Shown piece by piece: positions 12,368 to 56,196 of a stretch of DNA of 64,000 bases. How positions within the stretch are numbered: position 1 is the stretch's first letter; each line of letters opens with the position of its first letter. Made by a program: the position numbers and the translations under genes. Source of the DNA: an uncultured Eubacteriales bacterium (lineage in GTDB: Bacteria > Bacillota > Clostridia > Lachnospirales > Lachnospiraceae); contig OMWY01000007.1 of assembly GCA_900314885.1 (NCBI GenBank), forward strand, positions 1 through 64,000, in the 5' to 3' direction. Below the pieces are notes generated by a model that was given only the letters and a program-made list of their open reading frames with translations, was not told the DNA's origin and ran no database searches.

Positions 12368-14491
12368 TCATTTTATCTCCTTATACGTATATGAATTATT
12401 ATAAATATATTCTTCGAAGTCGTCAGCGTCAACCGGTCTTGAAATAAGATACCCCTGAAAATAATTGACACCGAGATTCTCAAGAGCCTTTTTCTGCTCA
12501 TCTGTCTCTACAAATTCCGCCACTACATAGAGACTGAACTTTCTCGCAAGCTCTGTAATATTTTCTATAATGGCCTTATCCGCTTCTGCCTCAGCTCCAT
12601 TTACGATAACCCTTGTGAGTGAGCCATCAAGCTTTATTCCGTCGAACACATCATAACGAAGATACTGAAGGGATGTATGACCCATACCGAAATCATCTAT
12701 TAAGAGATGAAAGCCTGACTTCTTAAGGGCATGAAGTCTCTCAAGCTGGAGAAGTGATGTTGTAATAGCATCCTGTTCCGTGATTTCTATCCAGAAATGA
12801 TTTGGATTAACCCCGTATTTATTTACCACCTTCTGTATATCATCTACAATGCTTTCCCTGAGAAGGCTTTCTCCCGTAATATTAATAGAAATCTTTCCAT
12901 TAAATCCGGCATCCTCCATCCAGGATAATTCCTTAGCGCTCGTCTCGAATATAAATGTTTCTAGTTCTCCCAGGAAGCCACCATATTTCGCAAGCGCTAT
13001 AATTAACGGAGGATAAATAAATCCTATCTCATCGTCATTCCATCTTATAAGAGCTTCCGCCCCGATACAGGTTCCGTTTGTATCGGTCTGCGGCTGATAG
13101 TACATATAAATATTATTTTTTTCAGTGACAGCCTTCTTAAGCCTTGCGAGTAACAGAATCGCTACCTGATAGAGATTTTGAGTGAGCATCCCTATCTCAA
13201 AGTCACGGCCTGAATTTTCACACTCCTTTACAGTCCCCACAATTTTTTCTGTCTGTTTCGAGAGATATAAACTGTTATATTCATCAGCCATTTTTACAAA
13301 GGGTCTGAACATAAATATATCCAATATACTCATGCCAAGCATAAGAAAGAATGACGGAACGCTGTAGGCCGCGAAATAGACAGAGAAAATAAAAATATTT
13401 CCGTTGCCGCCATTATAAAAGAATGCCGGCAGAATTCCTGTCTTCTCGACTAAACGTAAAATAATAAAATTAACAGTCGGAATACATATAAATGGCAAAA
13501 AATATATCGGGTTAAGTATGGTATCAAGACTGTAAATTACAGGCTGACCCACACCGAAAACAGATGGCAGAAGTCCAAGCTCAGCCGATCTCCTCCGCCT
13601 CTTATATTTAGAGAACCACATAATTGAAACAGCGAGAGTAAAAGCTAAAAATCCCGTCGAAGCTACAGCGTACATAGAGAAATAATTTATCTCTTTATAG
13701 AAGTCAGAGCTAGTCTCAAAAGGAATAAAAAGCGCGCTCATCGGACCTAAAAAATCATCGCTGTTTACGCCGAGCCACATCAGCAGCTGCTTATAAATAA
13801 TCAACAGGATCAGCGCAAGAGATGGGCTCTTTATTTTCGCTATACTATCAAAATTAAAGAGGTCATAGAAGAAGAGGATAAGCGGTTCTCCCGTGGTTTT
13901 CATAATTATATAATATACAGCAAAATAAATTAATTCCACGGCAAGAGAAGGAGGAATAATCGCGGCTACGACACTTCCCAGCGTATCATTATTAGAAACG
14001 GTATTATTTTTACATAATACATATTCCGATAATAAACGGAACATATAAGCTGTATATAGGCCTGTAACAATAGCAGTCGGAATTGATATTAAGGAATATT
14101 GCATTTCTATAACCCTGCCATCGCTGATGCCTAAGGCTATAAAATAATTGACAACTGCTGTAATTACACCACCATTCTGCATGGTATAACTATTTTTCAC
14201 AACAAGCGAAAGATAGTGAGCCACAATGCTCATGCATAATATTATACCTAAAGAAAAGAAAGCGAAATTACTAATATCAACAATAATATCAAAAATTATT
14301 CTCTCCGCGCCGTCTCCGTCTAAAAAGCCATATCTGAATTTTAGCTCCTGCAGAATAACCCCTATATACCCAATCACATAAAAGGGGATAGATATAAACA
14401 GCGCCTGTCGGATGGCTATAATCATAGGCGCTTCGGAAAATTTATCATACACCTTAAATAGGGCATTTTTTAAGCCATACAGTCCTTGCAT
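12368..14491 (-). CDS. PTS EIIC-like membrane domain fused to EAL cyclic-di-GMP phosphodiesterase
   Basis: 707 residues. Residues 1 to about 400 have multiple membrane spans and resemble the lactose/cellobiose-type PTS EIIC, with GQPVIYSLDTILNPIYFLPF at 315-334. That block normally reads (N/T)EPVIFG..; here the substrate-contact Glu is Gln316. No EIIA or EIIB domain is attached. After a helical linker an EAL domain (about 455-695) keeps the usual active-site set: E479 (EAL), N537, E569, D599/D600 (DDFG), K620, E659 and Q679. It should therefore hydrolyse c-di-GMP. The start overlaps the cation-efflux gene stop by one base. Probable role: membrane sugar sensor setting c-di-GMP, rather than a transporter. 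Confidence 0.9.
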   Translation of the reverse strand: MQGLYGLKNALFKVYDKFSEAPMIIAIRQALFISIPFYVIGYIGVILQELKFRYGFLDGDGAERIIFDIIVDISNFAFFSLGIILCMSIVAHYLSLVVKNSYTMQNGGVITAVVNYFIALGISDGRVIEMQYSLISIPTAIVTGLYTAYMFRLLSEYVLCKNNTVSNNDTLGSVVAAIIPPSLAVELIYFAVYYIIMKTTGEPLILFFYDLFNFDSIAKIKSPSLALILLIIYKQLLMWLGVNSDDFLGPMSALFIPFETSSDFYKEINYFSMYAVASTGFLAFTLAVSIMWFSKYKRRRRSAELGLLPSVFGVGQPVIYSLDTILNPIYFLPFICIPTVNFIILRLVEKTGILPAFFYNGGNGNIFIFSVYFAAYSVPSFFLMLGMSILDIFMFRPFVKMADEYNSLYLSKQTEKIVGTVKECENSGRDFEIGMLTQNLYQVAILLLARLKKAVTEKNNIYMYYQPQTDTNGTCIGAEALIRWNDDEIGFIYPPLIIALAKYGGFLGELETFIFETSAKELSWMEDAGFNGKISINITGESLLRESIVDDIQKVVNKYGVNPNHFWIEITEQDAITTSLLQLERLHALKKSGFHLLIDDFGMGHTSLQYLRYDVFDGIKLDGSLTRVIVNGAEAEADKAIIENITELARKFSLYVVAEFVETDEQKKALENLGVNYFQGYLISRPVDADDFEEYIYNNSYTYKEIK

Positions 14492-15631: not shown

Positions 15632-17269
15632 TTACTCCGCTTGCTTCTTAGATAAGTCTATTCCTCTGATAACTTTTCTTAAAGGCAGGATGCTCTTAGG
15701 GTTTACCGAAAGCTCATCGACGCCCATCCGTAAAAATGTCTCGGTGAGCGAGGTATCGGCTCCAAGCTCCCCACAGATACCAACCCAACAGTTGTGCCTG
15801 TGACCTGCCTCTATAGTCATCTGGATTTCCTTAAGGACAGCCGGATGGTGGATATCAAGGAAAGGCTCAAGCTTAGCGTTCTGCCTGTCAATAGCGCATG
15901 TATACTGGGTCAGGTCATTCGTGCCTATTGAGAAGAAATCGCACTCCTCAGCAAGCTCATCCGCTATAAGCACCGCCGCAGGAGTCTCTATCATGGTGCC
16001 GACCTCTACGTAATTTATCTTCTTTCCCTCGGCGATAAGCTCCTTGCTGCATTCATTTAAAAGATCCTTGCACTCGCGAAGTTCTCGAAGGCTGATTATC
16101 ATAGGGAACATGATTCCTATATTTCCGTAATACGAAGCCCGAAGGAGAGCCCGAAGCTGGGTCTTGAAGAAAACCTTTCTCGTAAGACAGATTCTCACAG
16201 CCCGAAGACCAAGCGCAGGATTGGTCTCCTTTTCAAGGCCCATATAGTCTACAGTCTTGTCAGCCCCGATATCGCAGGTTCTTATTATTACCTTCTTAGG
16301 CGCCATTGTCTCGGCTACATGGCGATAGGCCTCGAACTGCTCATCCTCCGTAGGATAATTATGGCTGTTAAGGTAGACAAATTCCGACCGGAAAAGGCCT
16401 ATACCTTCAGCGTCATTCTGCTGAACTACTCCTATATCGGACGGTCCGCCTATATTCGCGTAAACCTTTATGGTCTTCCCATCAATTGTAGTGTTGCTCT
16501 TACCCTTAAGTTCGGTCAGGAGTGCTACCTTCCTCGCGTCCTCTTCCTGCCTCTTCTTAAGGCTCTTGAGGAGGTCGGCAGGCGGATCGACATAGAAGCA
16601 GGAATTATAGCCGTCTATGACGCCCATTTTCCCGTCCCAGTCATCCTTGATCTCACCGGCCTGGACAAGGGCCGGAATATTCATGCTCCTTGCTAAAATG
16701 GCTGTATGACTGTTTGTGCTTCCTTCTGCCGTTACAAAGCCTAAGAGTAGCTTCTTATCAAGCTTCACCGTCTCGCTGGGCGCAAGGTCCTTAGCGACCA
16801 GGATAGATGGCTCCGTCCCCTGAAGTGTAGCGTTATCGGTACCGGTAAGGACATCGATAACGCACTGACCTATATCAATAACGTCGGCGCTCCTCTCCCT
16901 CAGATAAGGATCATCCATATCGGAAAATACCTTGGCCTGGTTAGCGCAGGCCTTCTTTACGGCGTACTCCGCAGGCCTGTGCTGATTTCCGATAATTTCC
17001 TTTATAGCGTCAATGAGGTCGTCATCATCGAGCATCATGGCGTGAACGTCAAAAACCGCAGCTGTATCCTCACCCGACTCATCGAGGGCCTTCTGATAGA
17101 GCTTCTTCTGGTAAGCCTGAGCCTTAAGTCTCGCGTCTTCAAAGCGCTCAAGCTCAGCCTTGGTATTTTCAACAGGCTCATCGCTTATATGAAGCTCAGG
17201 CACCTTATATATCTTAATTTTTCCTATAGCAATACCGTTAAGTATGCTTTTTCCCGTTGCAACAAACAT
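15632..17269 (-). CDS. ptsI: PTS enzyme I (phosphoenolpyruvate-protein phosphotransferase)
   Basis: 545 residues, close to the family norm. The phospho-histidine motif is TAEGSTNSHTAILARSMNIPALV near residue 190. PEP-binding segments follow: GIGLFRSEFVYL, EVGTMIETPAAVL, SIGTNDLTQYT and the catalytic Cys loop GICGELGAD near 500. It takes phosphate from PEP and passes it to His15 of HPr. It lies downstream of ptsH but is separated from it by a terminator hairpin and three 94-bp repeats. No clear promoter is seen in that gap, so expression may depend on partial readthrough. Confidence 0.96.
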   Translation of the reverse strand: MFVATGKSILNGIAIGKIKIYKVPELHISDEPVENTKAELERFEDARLKAQAYQKKLYQKALDESGEDTAAVFDVHAMMLDDDDLIDAIKEIIGNQHRPAEYAVKKACANQAKVFSDMDDPYLRERSADVIDIGQCVIDVLTGTDNATLQGTEPSILVAKDLAPSETVKLDKKLLLGFVTAEGSTNSHTAILARSMNIPALVQAGEIKDDWDGKMGVIDGYNSCFYVDPPADLLKSLKKRQEEDARKVALLTELKGKSNTTIDGKTIKVYANIGGPSDIGVVQQNDAEGIGLFRSEFVYLNSHNYPTEDEQFEAYRHVAETMAPKKVIIRTCDIGADKTVDYMGLEKETNPALGLRAVRICLTRKVFFKTQLRALLRASYYGNIGIMFPMIISLRELRECKDLLNECSKELIAEGKKINYVEVGTMIETPAAVLIADELAEECDFFSIGTNDLTQYTCAIDRQNAKLEPFLDIHHPAVLKEIQMTIEAGHRHNCWVGICGELGADTSLTETFLRMGVDELSVNPKSILPLRKVIRGIDLSKKQAE

Positions 17270-17306
17270 AATCCTACTCCTACTGTCGGTGTTACTTCCT
17301 GCTTTC

Positions 17307-17336
17307 TAAAAAGAAAGCCGGGAAGTTCCCGGCTTT
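17307..17336 (-). terminator. Terminator hairpin between HPr and enzyme I genes
   Basis: AAAGCCGGGAA and TTCCCGGCTTT (17314-17336) form a perfect hairpin, followed on the minus strand by CTTTTT. It should stop transcripts leaving the repeat array after ptsH. The plus-strand side also ends in TTTTT, so it may act both ways. Confidence 0.75.
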
Positions 17337-17346
17337 TTAGCCCCGA

Positions 17347-17630
17347 ATGTAGAAAGTCAGCAAAAGCTGACTTTCTCTGAAGAGAAGCCGATCGATTCGC
17401 ATAGCTCATCGCGGGTCGCATTGCTTCGCAAAGCGACAATATGTAGAAAGTCAGCAAAAGCTGACTTTCTCTGAAGAGAAGCCGATCGATTCGCATAGCT
17501 CATCGCGGGTCGCATTGCTTCGCAAAGCGACAAAATGTAGAAAGTCAGCAAAAGCTGACTTTCTCTGAAGAGAAGCCGATCGATTCGCATAGCTCATCGC
17601 GGGTCGCATTGCTTCGCAAAGCGACAATAT
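17347..17630. repeat. Three tandem copies of a 94-bp hairpin-rich repeat
   Basis: Copies start at 17347, 17441 and 17535 with a 94-bp period and near identity. The only difference noticed is ACAAT versus ACAAA at the unit end. Each unit carries GAAAGTCAGC/GCTGACTTTC with a 4-base loop, and a second hairpin GTCGC-TTGC/GCAA-GCGAC at its end. Apparent ORFs through the array repeat the same peptide and are not credible genes. Related single copies lie at 43961-44071 (reverse orientation), 29083-29112 and 397-528. Confidence 0.93.
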
Positions 17631-17634
17631 GCCA

Positions 17635-17892
17635 TTATAAGTTTGCTTTTAAGAAATCCTCGATTTCCTTTGCGGCCGCGGCTTCGTCATCACCCTCAAC
17701 CTCAACCGTGATGGTGTCGCCCTGCTTGATGCCCAAGCCCATGAGGGCGAGCAGCTTCTTCATCTCGGCCTGCTTGTCGCCAAACTTAACCACTACCTTG
17801 CTTCCGTGAGCCTTAACGAGCTTAACGAGCTCTCCTGCCGGACGCGCGTGGATACCATTTTCATCCTTAATAGTGTAGTCAAAACTTGTCAT
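17635..17892 (-). CDS. ptsH: HPr phosphocarrier protein lacking regulatory Ser46
   Basis: 85 residues, standard HPr length. His15 sits in NGIHARPAG, with Arg17 and Pro18 conserved, so phosphotransfer from enzyme I is expected. Aligned without gaps to B. subtilis HPr, the regulatory site K45-S46-I47-M48 is K45-K46-L47-L48 here. HPr kinase could not phosphorylate it, and classical HPr-Ser-P/CcpA catabolite repression through this protein is therefore unlikely. The gene follows the EIIBCA gene by 50 bp with GGAGG upstream, and precedes the 94-bp repeats. Confidence 0.95.
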   Translation of the reverse strand: MTSFDYTIKDENGIHARPAGELVKLVKAHGSKVVVKFGDKQAEMKKLLALMGLGIKQGDTITVEVEGDDEAAAAKEIEDFLKANL

Positions 17893-17942
17893 TAACGTAT
17901 ACCTCCGAATTATTCTAAATATTAATTACTATTCTATCACAA

Positions 17943-19928
17943 TTATTTCCCGATTTCTACCTTAAAATCTTCAAAATCGTCACTATTTGTCAACAATACC
18001 GCGACAGTGTCAGAATATCCGGCATTTTTAATAGCCTCACGATCAAAGGTCATGAGCTTCTGCCCCTTGGTAATGGTATCGCCTTCCTTTACAAAGAGGG
18101 TAAATGGTCCGCCGTTAAGCTTAACTGTATCTACGCCTACGTGAATCAGAAGCTCCATATCGGCGGGACCCGTGATTCCGAGCGCGTGATGGGCATCGGC
18201 AATTGATGAAATCTCTCCATCAAAAGGAGCGTATACAATGCCCTCTGAAGGCTCAATACCGACACCTCCGCCAAGAACTCCCTGGGCAAATGTCTCGTCA
18301 GGAATTTTCTCTTCAGGTATAACATTTCCGGTTACAGGAGCGTATACATTTGCGCCACCCGCTGTCATAACTACCTTCTGTTCAAACGGAGCAGTAGTCG
18401 CGCCATTTGCCTCTAAAGCCTTATTTTCGGTCTTTGAAGGTGTACTTGCTGCCGCATTTGCAGATATTGCCGCACCGCCCTTTTTATCCGTGCCTTCAAC
18501 AACCGCCTCAGGCTCTTCTTCCTTGAATACGACCATTGTGAGACCAAATGATATTGCAAATGAAACAGCGAGAAGTATGCAGTAAAGGAGTGGATTATTT
18601 ATGGTAAGGAAGCCCGGAATACCGGTAACACCGTAAGCAGTCGCGCCTATTCCCATAAAGGCTCCAACAAGAGCTCCGACACCGCCACCTATCATAGCGC
18701 ATACAAACGGCTTCATGAAGCGGAGGTTGACACCGAAGATAGCCGGTTCCGTAATTCCGAGTGAGGCTGAGAGAGCTGATGGAACAGCAACCGACTTGGT
18801 CTTAGCGTTCTTGCTCTTGACAGCGACAGCGAGGCAGGCGCCAAACTGGGCAAAGTTAGCGGCGCTCGCTATAGGCATCCAGGTATTTAAAGCACCCTCT
18901 GCCAGCATTCCGGCCTCGATTACGTTATACATATGGTGCAAGCCCATGACAACGGTTACAGGGTAGATTACACCTATCGCAAAGGCTCCGAAAGGATTCT
19001 GAACGAGGAACTTAGCTCCCGCGAGAACGCCTGTCTCAAGCCATGCGAATACAGGTCCTATTACCGTAAATGTGAGGAGTGCCGTGCAGAGAACAGTTAC
19101 AAGTGGAGTAACAAAGAGGTCGAGCATCTCTATTACGTGCTTGTGGAGCCAGTTCTCGAGCTTACTCATAAAGTAAACAGAAATCATGACAGGAATTACA
19201 TGTCCCTGGTAGCCGTGACGGCTTATAGACAGGAAGGTATAATCACCTATCTTAAGGTTGCCAAAGAGGTGCCATTCCGGGATTTCGCCGTTCGTGACAC
19301 CAAAGAAGCTGTTTATTGCGTCAGCGCTGCCGACATTCCAACCGTTTAAGAGGGATGTGTGGACCATCATAAGGCCGATAACAGCGCCGAGAAAAATATT
19401 TCCACCGAATACCCTTGCTGCGGAAACTGCTACAATTACAGGGAGAAAGGCAAAGGCGGTATTCGATACCATATCGAGGAACTGGTACCAGTCGCTGTCC
19501 GAGAAGCCCGGAATTGCCTTACCGAGTGCCTCTACGATACCCATCATGAGGCCGGAAGCAACGATGGCAGGAAGGATAGGGACAAATACATCGCCTAATG
19601 ACTTTATCATCCTGTACCATACCGGCTTCTTCGCTGCGGCTGCCGCCTTCACTTCATCCTTAGTAGCCTCAGAGACACCGGTATACTTGAGGAATTCATC
19701 GTAAACCTTATTTACGGTTCCGGTACCGATAATAATCTGAAGCTGGCCGTTGCTCTCAAATACGCCCTTGACTCCGTCGACATTTTCAAGCTTCTTCTTG
19801 TCCACCTTGTTGTTGTCGACTGTCACGAGCCTGAGTCTCGTGGCGCAGTGAGCGGCACTCACTACATTTGCTCCGCCGCCGATAATGTCGGCGATCTCCT
19901 TAGCGCACTTAGTGTAATCCAATGCCAT
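17943..19928 (-). CDS. PTS EIIBCA transporter, sucrose/trehalose/beta-glucoside type
   Basis: 661 residues in B-C-A order. EIIB (1-85) has the phospho-Cys28 in AAHCATRLRLV. EIIC (about 110-470) is polytopic with FGVNLRFMKPFVCAMIGG and GITEPAIFG. A Ser/Ala-rich linker leads to EIIA (about 515-661) with the His region MELLIHVGVDTVKLNG. The protein imports and phosphorylates a glucoside using HPr. The neighbouring amylosucrase-like gene and the sucrose-6-phosphate hydrolase elsewhere favour sucrose, but trehalose or beta-glucosides cannot be excluded. A GGAGG site precedes the ATG. Confidence 0.92.
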   Translation of the reverse strand: MALDYTKCAKEIADIIGGGANVVSAAHCATRLRLVTVDNNKVDKKKLENVDGVKGVFESNGQLQIIIGTGTVNKVYDEFLKYTGVSEATKDEVKAAAAAKKPVWYRMIKSLGDVFVPILPAIVASGLMMGIVEALGKAIPGFSDSDWYQFLDMVSNTAFAFLPVIVAVSAARVFGGNIFLGAVIGLMMVHTSLLNGWNVGSADAINSFFGVTNGEIPEWHLFGNLKIGDYTFLSISRHGYQGHVIPVMISVYFMSKLENWLHKHVIEMLDLFVTPLVTVLCTALLTFTVIGPVFAWLETGVLAGAKFLVQNPFGAFAIGVIYPVTVVMGLHHMYNVIEAGMLAEGALNTWMPIASAANFAQFGACLAVAVKSKNAKTKSVAVPSALSASLGITEPAIFGVNLRFMKPFVCAMIGGGVGALVGAFMGIGATAYGVTGIPGFLTINNPLLYCILLAVSFAISFGLTMVVFKEEEPEAVVEGTDKKGGAAISANAAASTPSKTENKALEANGATTAPFEQKVVMTAGGANVYAPVTGNVIPEEKIPDETFAQGVLGGGVGIEPSEGIVYAPFDGEISSIADAHHALGITGPADMELLIHVGVDTVKLNGGPFTLFVKEGDTITKGQKLMTFDREAIKNAGYSDTVAVLLTNSDDFEDFKVEIGK

Positions 19929-53258: not shown

Positions 53259-54713
53259 TTAAATTTTAAATTCTTCCTTAACTCCGTGAATCAAAGAAAA
53301 TAGCTTTATTTCGCCCTTGCCGTCAAAATGAAAATGATGCTCATTCTCACGAGGGAATAGGCGGCTAGTGAATACCTCGTCGCCATCATTTACAAATATC
53401 TCAACGCTGCTTCTGTCAATAAATACGCGAAGTCTCGTAACAGCGCTGACAGCAGTGTGAGTTCTTACGTTTCCGTATTGCTCATTTAACTTCTGACTTA
53501 ATCCTGAACGGTCAAATGTAAGGGATTTCTTTCTCGCGTCGTAGGTAAATAAAATACCACCCTTTCCATCCTCATCAGATAAAAGTCTCAACGCAAAATC
53601 TTTGCCATCCGTATCTATGACAAGCTCCGCGCCATCAGGCAAGGTTTCCTTCGTCGCGTCAACCGCATGGTGGCGGAGACCGGCTAGCTCTACCACAGGA
53701 GCCTGAGTGAGGCGGCTTCCCTTAACGTGAAGTTCGCGAGGAAGGGTGAGACAGCCTGACCAGTCCTCATCATCGGTCGGATATTCGCTGTCAGGCAATC
53801 CCATCCAGGCCGAAAGAATCTTCCTGTCAGAATTCGCGGCGCACTGGGCGGCGTAAAAATCAAATCCCTCGTCAAGCACGTGAAAATGTCCCGCCGGTTT
53901 AAATGTAAGCATCTCGTAATCGAGATCGCCGACTACATAGCCGTTGTGATCCTTGGCGTCTCCGCTATTAGGAAGGTGGATATTCTGTGGGCAGAATATA
54001 AGGACATCCTTCCCATCAATTCTCTCAACAGAAGGACATTCCCACATTTCCCCGAAATCCTCATAGCCTTCTACCTTAAGCTCACCGGCGAAATCATATT
54101 TTCCAAGAATATCCTTCGAAGAATAAGCTATAATCCTTCCCTTTTTATCCTTAGTTTGCGCGCCAAGGAAAATGAAATATTTCTTTAATTCCTCGTTATA
54201 GACAATCTTCGGGTCACGCACATTATCGGTGTAGTCGGGATTTGGCTTGATAAGCGGCTTGTCAAGTTTCCTCGCCGTATTCGCCATAGTAATCTCGGCA
54301 GCGCATGTATATGGTCGCCTCGTCCAGTCCTCGTCACGGTGGTTTCCTGTGTAGAATATATAATACCTGTCATCGTAGGCAAAGCCCGAACCTGAGTAAA
54401 CGCCCTTATTGTCATAATCAGTATCAGGCTTTACACAGAGCCCTACATTTTCCCAATGGGCAAGGTCGGTGCTCACAAGGTGATACCAGTGCTTCAGGCC
54501 ATGTACAGCTCCCCACGGACACCACTGGTAAAAGAGGTGCCAGAGGCCTCCCATGTAAATGAAGCCGTTTGGATCATTTAGAAGCCCTGTAACAGGCATG
54601 ATGTGATATTTCTGCCTGTAAGGGCTATCTTTTATCTTATCATAAAGAGGGGCGATCTCGGATTCATCCGTGAAGACCTTATATCGCTCTTCCTTAGTCC
54701 ACTCTCTGCTCAT
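53259..54713 (-). CDS. scrB: Sucrose-6-phosphate hydrolase (GH32)
   Basis: 484 residues. The nucleophile motif is GLLNDPNGFIY near 43, the RDP motif NVRDPKIVYNEE near 167, and the acid/base region GEMWECPSVERIDG near 225. The C-terminal beta-sandwich includes LRVFIDRSSVEIFVNDGDEVFTSRLFP. No signal peptide, so it acts inside on PTS-delivered sucrose-6-phosphate, giving glucose-6-phosphate and fructose. It lies downstream of the HPr-dehydrogenase gene behind a terminator. A TGAAGCTTTTACA half-palindromic site precedes the start and could bind a LacI-type regulator. Confidence 0.92.
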   Translation of the reverse strand: MSREWTKEERYKVFTDESEIAPLYDKIKDSPYRQKYHIMPVTGLLNDPNGFIYMGGLWHLFYQWCPWGAVHGLKHWYHLVSTDLAHWENVGLCVKPDTDYDNKGVYSGSGFAYDDRYYIFYTGNHRDEDWTRRPYTCAAEITMANTARKLDKPLIKPNPDYTDNVRDPKIVYNEELKKYFIFLGAQTKDKKGRIIAYSSKDILGKYDFAGELKVEGYEDFGEMWECPSVERIDGKDVLIFCPQNIHLPNSGDAKDHNGYVVGDLDYEMLTFKPAGHFHVLDEGFDFYAAQCAANSDRKILSAWMGLPDSEYPTDDEDWSGCLTLPRELHVKGSRLTQAPVVELAGLRHHAVDATKETLPDGAELVIDTDGKDFALRLLSDEDGKGGILFTYDARKKSLTFDRSGLSQKLNEQYGNVRTHTAVSAVTRLRVFIDRSSVEIFVNDGDEVFTSRLFPRENEHHFHFDGKGEIKLFSLIHGVKEEFKI

Positions 54714-54794: not shown

Positions 54795-54821
54795 CAAAAA
54801 AACAGGGGCTATAGCCCCTGT
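54795..54821 (-). terminator. Terminator of the HPr-dehydrogenase gene
   Basis: ACAGGGGCTATAGCCCCTGT (54802-54821) is a perfect hairpin, followed on the minus strand by TTTTTTT, eight bases after the stop codon. Confidence 0.9.
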
Positions 54822-54828
54822 TCCATTA

Positions 54829-56136
54829 TTAACCGGTATACTTTACTTCCGCATTGCCGAGGTCCCTGCCCTCGTTGAAGTTTCTCGCGTTCTCCATGGT
54901 TACAACCGCTATAGCCTGCATTGCCTCTCTCGTAAAGAAAGCCTGGTGAGAAGTAAGAATCAGATTCGGGAACATGGTGAGCCTTGCGGTTACACTGTGA
55001 GGAAGCGGGTCGCTTGAATGGTCCGTATATACGTTCGGGTCCTCGCCCTCGTATACGTCAAGCGCTACAGCATGGAATTTGCCTGCCTTAAGGGCATCTA
55101 TAAGAGCTTCGGTATCAATAAGGGGACCACGGGCTGTATTTACAAGCATCGCGTCATCCTTCATAAGGTCAATCGCCGCTTTATCTATAAGGTGATAGGT
55201 ACCGCCCTCTCCCATTATAAGCGGAGCGTGAAGGGAAATGAGGTCTGCCTTAGAAAGTACCTCCTCCTTCGTTCCGTATGTAAGAAGTCCTTCATCCACA
55301 AGCTTCTGGTTAGGGTACGCATCCCACCCTATAACAGTCATACCGTAGCCCTTGCAGATTCTCGCCATGCACTGACCTATCTTGCCTGTGCCCATTATTC
55401 CGGCTACCTTGTTGTGAAGATCTACACCCATAAGACCACTCAGGGCGAAATTATTATCTCTTACCTTGTTGTATGCCTTGTGGATATGCCTGTTAGCCGC
55501 CTGGATAAGAGCCATGGCGTGCTCAGCTACAGCGTACGGAGAATAAGCCGGCACTCTGAGTACTGTAATTCCGCACTCCTTTGCCGCCTTGAGGTCGACA
55601 TTATTAAATCCGGCGCAACGAAGGAGGATAAGCCTTACTCCATTATCCTTGAGAGCCCTTACTATAGAACCATCGCAGTCATCATTTACGAAAATGCAAA
55701 CTGCGTCATAGCCCTTCGCAAGAGCTACTGTCTCATCGGTAAGCCTTGCGGCGAAATAATGGATATCGCAGTTATATGTATTCTCTCCTACCTCCTGGCT
55801 CAACTGGTCAAAGAAGGTACGGTCGTAATCCTTGGTTCCGAAGAAGGCTATCTTAAGGACGCTGACTGCGGCATGCTCTTCGAATTTCTCATGCAGGACC
55901 TTATCTACGGCTTCAAGAGCGTCATCCTCGTCCGGGCCTTCAACCGTGACCTTTATATTGTCACCGTTCTTGGCGTGAAGTCCTAAGATGTCAAGGACAT
56001 TTCCGGCACTTGCGGTCTTACCATTGCAGGTGAGAGTAACCTGTGATTTAAATGATACACAGGTTTGCGCCAGTTGGGCTGCCGGGCGGGCGTGAACGCC
56101 AAGCGGATTAGTGATGACATAATCAAGTTCTCTCAT
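54829..56136 (-). CDS. HPr domain fused to a D-lactate-type 2-hydroxyacid dehydrogenase
   Basis: 435 residues from the ATG at 56136, ten bases after TTGGAGG; one open frame without interruption. Residues 1-88 are an HPr: His15 in NPLGVHARPAAQL, Arg17 and Pro18 conserved, Asn46 in place of regulatory Ser46. Residues about 92-435 are a D-isomer dehydrogenase of the LdhA type: Arg near 173 (LLRCAGFNNVDL), NAD loop G249-T-G251-K-I-G254, catalytic Arg336 (NTARG), Glu365 (DVYEGED) and His397 (LTSHQAFFT). It should reduce pyruvate to D-lactate with NADH. The HPr part suggests phosphorylation by enzyme I tunes the enzyme or its partners. Cytoplasmic; monocistronic, next to scrB. Confidence 0.93.
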   Translation of the reverse strand: MRELDYVITNPLGVHARPAAQLAQTCVSFKSQVTLTCNGKTASAGNVLDILGLHAKNGDNIKVTVEGPDEDDALEAVDKVLHEKFEEHAAVSVLKIAFFGTKDYDRTFFDQLSQEVGENTYNCDIHYFAARLTDETVALAKGYDAVCIFVNDDCDGSIVRALKDNGVRLILLRCAGFNNVDLKAAKECGITVLRVPAYSPYAVAEHAMALIQAANRHIHKAYNKVRDNNFALSGLMGVDLHNKVAGIMGTGKIGQCMARICKGYGMTVIGWDAYPNQKLVDEGLLTYGTKEEVLSKADLISLHAPLIMGEGGTYHLIDKAAIDLMKDDAMLVNTARGPLIDTEALIDALKAGKFHAVALDVYEGEDPNVYTDHSSDPLPHSVTARLTMFPNLILTSHQAFFTREAMQAIAVVTMENARNFNEGRDLGNAEVKYTG

Positions 56137-56196
56137 GATAAATATACCTCCAATCAAAATTTTACTGTTACATCTGTGAATATTGTATCACATATT

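Follow-up and report, generated by a model that had tools for sequence, protein, structure and literature searches.

Why should a fermentative lactate dehydrogenase (LDH) carry, within its own polypeptide, a phosphocarrier of the sugar-uptake machinery? The question is raised by a gene in a 64,000-nucleotide stretch of DNA (the window; positions 1 to 64,000 of contig OMWY01000007.1, assembly GCA_900314885.1) from an uncultured Eubacteriales bacterium of the Lachnospiraceae. A first-pass annotation had claimed that one frame here joins a complete HPr, the phosphocarrier of the phosphoenolpyruvate (PEP):sugar phosphotransferase system (PTS), to a complete LdhA-type dehydrogenase, and the claim is borne out by a single 435-residue open reading frame (ORF) at 54829-56136 on the minus strand, with an ATG start and no internal stop. 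The domain search that the annotation had proposed matched all three families far above cut-off: PTS-HPr (PF00381) at residues 5-81 with 85 bits against a cut-off of 23 and, C-terminal to it, 2-Hacid_dh (PF00389) with 107 bits and 2-Hacid_dh_C (PF02826) with 160 bits; TIGR01003 (HPr) gave 77.6 bits against a cut-off of 47.9. The residues it had listed are likewise all in place, namely His15, Arg17 and Pro18 of the HPr, and the NAD loop, Arg336, Glu365 and His397 of the dehydrogenase. On balance we lean, if only slightly, toward the answer that the fusion is a fermentative LdhA-type D-LDH whose own HPr senses how far the PTS is phosphorylated.

That the fusion is an artefact of assembly or frameshifting is refuted with practically no room for doubt. 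The junction was checked for a frameshift or misjoin and recurs in 88 clean homologues, and the architecture, far from being absent from close relatives, was seen unbroken at about 90 loci, which come from many projects and include isolates. A homologue scan of one-per-species genomes left 80 loci, nearly all spanning residues 1-432 in one frame, in Lachnospiraceae, Erysipelotrichales and Selenomonadaceae; the isolates with the fusion include Sharpea azabuensis, Sharpea porci, Eggerthia catenaformis, Faecalibacillus, Mitsuokella multacida, Selenomonas montiformis, Lactimicrobium massiliense and Floccifex porci. The survey of Lachnospiraceae that had been suggested, run on 299 genomes (about one per genus), found an LdhA-type enzyme in 133, 11 of which have the fused form; in Erysipelotrichales, the order to which Sharpea belongs, such an enzyme occurs in 29 of 148 genomes and is fused in 27. 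The fusion is the sole LdhA-type enzyme in nearly all genomes that bear it, and a gene of the L-LDH or malate dehydrogenase (MDH) type is absent from 7 of the 11 fused Lachnospiraceae genomes, so the fusion is likely the main LDH there. In the LDH tree the fused domains make up one side of a branch (SH-aLRT, a likelihood-ratio branch test, 100), pointing to a single-clade origin, and the intermixing of taxa inside this clade suggests horizontal spread.

The layout of the protein is as regular as its distribution is wide. Over the 88 clean homologues the linker has 12 residues in 82, 11 in four and 13 in two, and AlphaFold2, with 88 sequences as input, returns two confident domains with a dip in confidence at the linker (mean predicted local distance difference test score, pLDDT, 84; predicted template modelling score, pTM, 0.72). 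Separate translation of the LDH from the junction is unlikely, as the window offers no in-frame start there and 81 of the 88 homologues lack an in-frame ATG at that point. A TTG 21 nt upstream of the ATG is a possible alternative start, but lacks ribosome-binding-site spacing.

The HPr domain is maintained by selection as a working HPr, and the fusion as a whole is under purifying selection. His15, Ala16 and Arg17 are unchanged in 83 of 83 sequences, and His15 and Arg17 in 88 of 88. Mean entropy is 0.68 bits at the presumed docking positions for Enzyme I and EIIA and 1.71 bits over the rest of the HPr (p 9e-5), making the docking face the most conserved portion of the domain. In close pairs the ratio of nonsynonymous to synonymous substitution (dN/dS) is about 0.08 for the HPr domain and about 0.03 for the LDH domain, a value for HPr that shows a domain that is not decaying. 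Were the HPr a passive leftover of the gene fusion, or a mere aid to folding or oligomerisation, its evolving at about twice the rate of the LDH domain would be accounted for; an invariant His15 and Arg17 over many genera, the low dN/dS and the near-constant linker length are not, and we regard this explanation as extremely unlikely.

Position 46 narrows the kind of input that such a domain could receive. The fusion in the window is not an HPr-kinase-regulated Gram-positive HPr, having Asn46 instead of Ser46; of 88 fusions, two retain Ser46 and the other 86 have another residue there. HPr kinase was found in all 11 fused Lachnospiraceae genomes; since Ser46 has been lost despite its presence, the remaining input would be His15. 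Nor is the domain a Crh, in which His15 is replaced and Ser46 kept: the fusion has His15 and no Ser46, and Crh-like proteins with Glu15 and Ser46 occur separately in related genomes.

Among their other HPrs, the Lachnospiraceae seem to split roles between a His15/Lys46 type encoded beside Enzyme I and Crh-like proteins with Ser46, without His15 and often with Glu15 (G000:C17:24950-25189, covering loci L003 and L160; related loci L131, L134, L137, L141, L143, L147 and L150). In genome G000 the Crh-like gene lies about 4 kb from that for HPr kinase. Five further loci (L145, L152, L153, L154 and L155) form an HPr clade of their own, marked by Ser46 and by the sequence GLHLRPAG or one close to it.

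The partner of the HPr is predicted to be a fermentative, tetrameric LdhA-type D-lactate dehydrogenase. It combines the two dehydrogenase families, the NAD loop and the Arg/Glu/His site with nearest structures that are all D-LDHs, those of F. nucleatum, E. coli, Salmonella and P. aeruginosa (E 1e-87 to 1e-93). Enzymes of the LdhA type form tetramers and behave allosterically, and the one from F. nucleatum favours 2-ketobutyrate as substrate (PMC4230899). A lactate permease gene adjoins the fusion in seven loci, which fits lactate as the product. Compared with unfused relatives, the fused clade is marked by a YSPY loop, Trp271, Gly364, Asn419 and a three-residue MGE insertion; of the sequences displayed, the fused ones have this insertion and the split and unfused relatives lack it.

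A second arrangement of the same two parts also argues for their coupling. Two genomes of one genus, G034 and G335, have the LDH as a gene by itself, and immediately upstream of it, at a spacing of about 102 nt and about 80 nt, respectively, the gene for an HPr that belongs to the fused subfamily (His15, Gln46). In the HPr tree these split-pair HPrs group with the fused HPrs (94/85), away from catabolic and Crh-like HPrs, and the split LDH has a GEGTYN segment in common with the fused LDHs, but no MGE insertion. The LDH tree leaves the fork between the split and fused forms open, favouring neither gain nor loss. That the dedicated HPr also occurs as a separate gene next to an LDH gene supports a link between HPr and LDH. 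It also bears on the idea that the domain is an additional PTS phosphocarrier feeding an EIIA, its LDH partner merely setting expression level or place. Such a role would explain why His15 and the face common to Enzyme I and EIIA are conserved, but a dedicated HPr coupled to LDH in two arrangements speaks for the LDH link, and other His15 HPrs are encoded beside Enzyme I in these genomes, so a further phosphocarrier is not needed; we consider it unlikely.

If the HPr domain does act on the LDH, the following scheme may apply. Enzyme I would phosphorylate His15 of the fusion with PEP as the source, and the HPr domain would relay the PTS phosphorylation state in cis to the allosteric D-LDH. Influx of a PTS sugar would drain PEP, leaving His15 mostly unphosphorylated and the LDH favoured, while high PEP would give phospho-His15 and restrain the LDH. 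A likely phosphate donor is available, since the window also holds a cluster of Enzyme I, HPr and EIIBCA genes (15632-19928). Phosphorylation by Enzyme I, any kinetic effect and the direction of that effect are what we infer; that dephospho-His15 favours activity is a guess, by analogy with known HPr-enzyme regulation.

Several points weigh against this scheme. An unchanging His15 and a well-conserved docking face would be expected just as much of a domain that did no more than pass phosphate or bind Enzyme I. The docking positions behind the entropy comparison are presumed contact sites. Loss of Ser46 had to be rejected as a mark specific to the fusion, the stand-alone catabolic HPrs of the same genomes having mostly Lys46 or Arg46. 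The AlphaFold2 output yields no inter-domain geometry and lends no support to contact between HPr and the active site. Enzyme I was found in every one of the 11 fused Lachnospiraceae genomes and in 25 of 27 fused Erysipelotrichales genomes but not in the other two (G400 and G478, completeness unknown), and it is so nearly universal (265 of 299 Lachnospiraceae and 142 of 148 Erysipelotrichales genomes) that its co-occurrence with the fusion says little.

The same observations would be compatible with a protein in which HPr simply brings the LDH to Enzyme I, so that the LDH uses pyruvate where the PTS releases it and there is no allosteric switch; His15 would then be kept because docking and phosphate transfer are coupled. 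It is established that pyruvate is both the product of Enzyme I and the substrate of LDH, the face that docks Enzyme I is the best-conserved part of the HPr, and the catalytic residues of the LDH are unaltered. However, pyruvate diffuses fast and is supplied by pyruvate kinase as well, and changes of His15 should be better tolerated than invariance in 88 of 88 sequences implies, which makes channelling somewhat unlikely. The facts also leave the direction of control unfixed: the LDH-joined HPr could change the free Enzyme I or PTS partner, letting pyruvate or redox state feed back on the PTS. We found no precedent for such reverse control, which would work only if the fusion were plentiful compared with Enzyme I, and hold it to be very unlikely.

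Table 1. Positions in the window of the fusion gene, its parts and the neighbouring and PTS genes discussed
Feature	Position	Strand	Basis or remark
HPr-D-LDH fusion gene, 435 aa	54829..56136	-	ORF, Pfam, residue check, homologue alignment
Shine-Dalgarno GGAGG of fusion gene	56147..56151	-	sequence; 10 nt upstream of ATG
HPr domain, residues 1-82	55891..56136	-	PF00381 residues 5-81; AlphaFold2 HPr-like secondary structure
His15 codon, predicted Enzyme I phosphorylation site	56092..56094	-	invariant in 87 homologues and window protein
Asn46, at HPr-kinase Ser46 place	55999..56001	-	88 homologues: N 77, D 8, S 2, E 1
Linker, residues 82-93	55858..55893	-	length 12 in 82/88 homologues
LdhA-type D-lactate dehydrogenase domain, residues 94-435 (predicted)	54832..55857	-	PF00389, PF02826; PDB relatives
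GTGKIG NAD-binding loop, residues 249-254	55375..55392	-	residue check, alignment
MGE insertion, residues 308-310 of LDH domain	55207..55215	-	alignment display
Catalytic Arg336	55129..55131	-	invariant in 123 fused and unfused LDHs
Catalytic Glu365	55042..55044	-	invariant
Catalytic His397	54946..54948	-	invariant
Intrinsic terminator directly 3' of fusion gene	54799..54824	-	11-pair stem, U tract, z -3.9
Sucrose-6-phosphate hydrolase (scrB), beyond terminator	53259..54713	-	TIGR01322 444 bits
Enzyme I, likely phosphate donor	15632..17269	-	TIGR01417 568 bits
Stand-alone HPr (His15, Lys46) beside Enzyme I	17635..17892	-	family search, HPr tree
Sucrose/beta-glucoside-type PTS EIIBCA beside HPr and Enzyme I	17943..19928	-	profile search

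The first-pass annotation had taken the neighbouring sucrose-6-phosphate hydrolase gene as a sign of a role in sugar flux, but this fails: the two genes are set apart by an intrinsic terminator, and a comparison of 61 loci showed no conserved neighbourhood. An operon of the two is rejected on the same grounds, and scrB, following so strong a terminator, is probably a separate unit. None of the neighbours among the 61 loci is widely conserved, the commonest (7 of 61; L030, L038, L040, L042, L044, L048 and L055) being a divergent lactate permease (PF02652) in loci of the Coprobacillaceae type, and a search of Rfam gave no RNA element. Open frames on the plus strand at 53880-54188 and 55018-55986 (102 and 322 codons), opposite scrB and the fusion gene, are most likely chance products of codon bias. 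Two genes downstream of Enzyme I, at 12368-14491 on the minus strand, a 707-residue protein combines a PTS EIIC-like membrane domain (37 bits) with an EAL cyclic di-GMP phosphodiesterase domain (186 bits).

What the fusion would mean for its hosts depends on whether the HPr domain regulates the LDH. We give about an even chance to the full proposal, a covalent, phosphorylation-dependent coupling of PTS uptake to lactate formation that reads PEP:pyruvate without involving HPr kinase and is the form that LdhA-type D-LDHs usually take in Erysipelotrichales, occurring also in Lachnospiraceae and Selenomonadaceae. If the HPr gates the enzyme, the many gut and rumen bacteria that have the fusion could set lactate output directly from the state of sugar uptake by means of one protein, a control that would bypass both transcription and HPr kinase. 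Sharpea is a lactate former linked to low-methane sheep rumens, in which its PTS and D-LDH genes are highly transcribed; the 12-fold rise reported matches the rise in total Sharpea reads and hence is no sign of regulation (PMC5069950). The transcribed D-LDH is probably the fusion, because the related genome G326 has no other gene of the LdhA type. Widespread and directly testable, the fusion also offers a natural tethered system in which to study HPr control of enzymes at the pyruvate node.

Each half of the protein has known counterparts. With the LdhA-type D-LDHs of E. coli, F. nucleatum and P. aeruginosa (PDB 3wx0, 5z21 and 5z20; 42-46% identity, fold alignment) it shares the whole catalytic and NAD domain, the same Arg/Glu/His residues and the GxGxxG, but these solved relatives, among the matches listed, match only the LDH part of the query. 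With HPr (PtsH) it shares the fold, the His15-Ala-Arg-Pro site and the docking face, whereas its HPr is covalently linked to an enzyme, has Asn or less often Asp at position 46 and forms its own subfamily in the tree. Free HPr is known to act on enzymes: in V. vulnificus dephospho-HPr stimulates PykA by lowering its Km for PEP (PMC5987630), and E. coli HPr binds PykF and PfkB, according to work cited in PMC8167557. As is proposed for the fusion, HPr there alters the activity of an enzyme placed at the PEP-pyruvate node or close to it, for PykA in a manner that depends on phosphorylation; but in those systems separate proteins meet, with pyruvate kinase or phosphofructokinase as the target, whereas here the HPr lies within a pyruvate-consuming enzyme. 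An HPr fused to a fermentative dehydrogenase is not described in the open-access literature that we searched, a body that is incomplete and leaves most subscription papers outside; already known are enzymes on which free HPr acts, and fusions of PTS domains to transporters and regulators. PTS domains on other partners include the EIIA of LacS, the EIIB and EIIA of PRD regulators, and the GAF-Enzyme I protein PtsP. Like the fusion, these employ a PTS phosphorylation domain as a regulatory module in cis, but they are transporters, transcription regulators and PTS proteins, whereas the partner in the fusion is a fermentative dehydrogenase.
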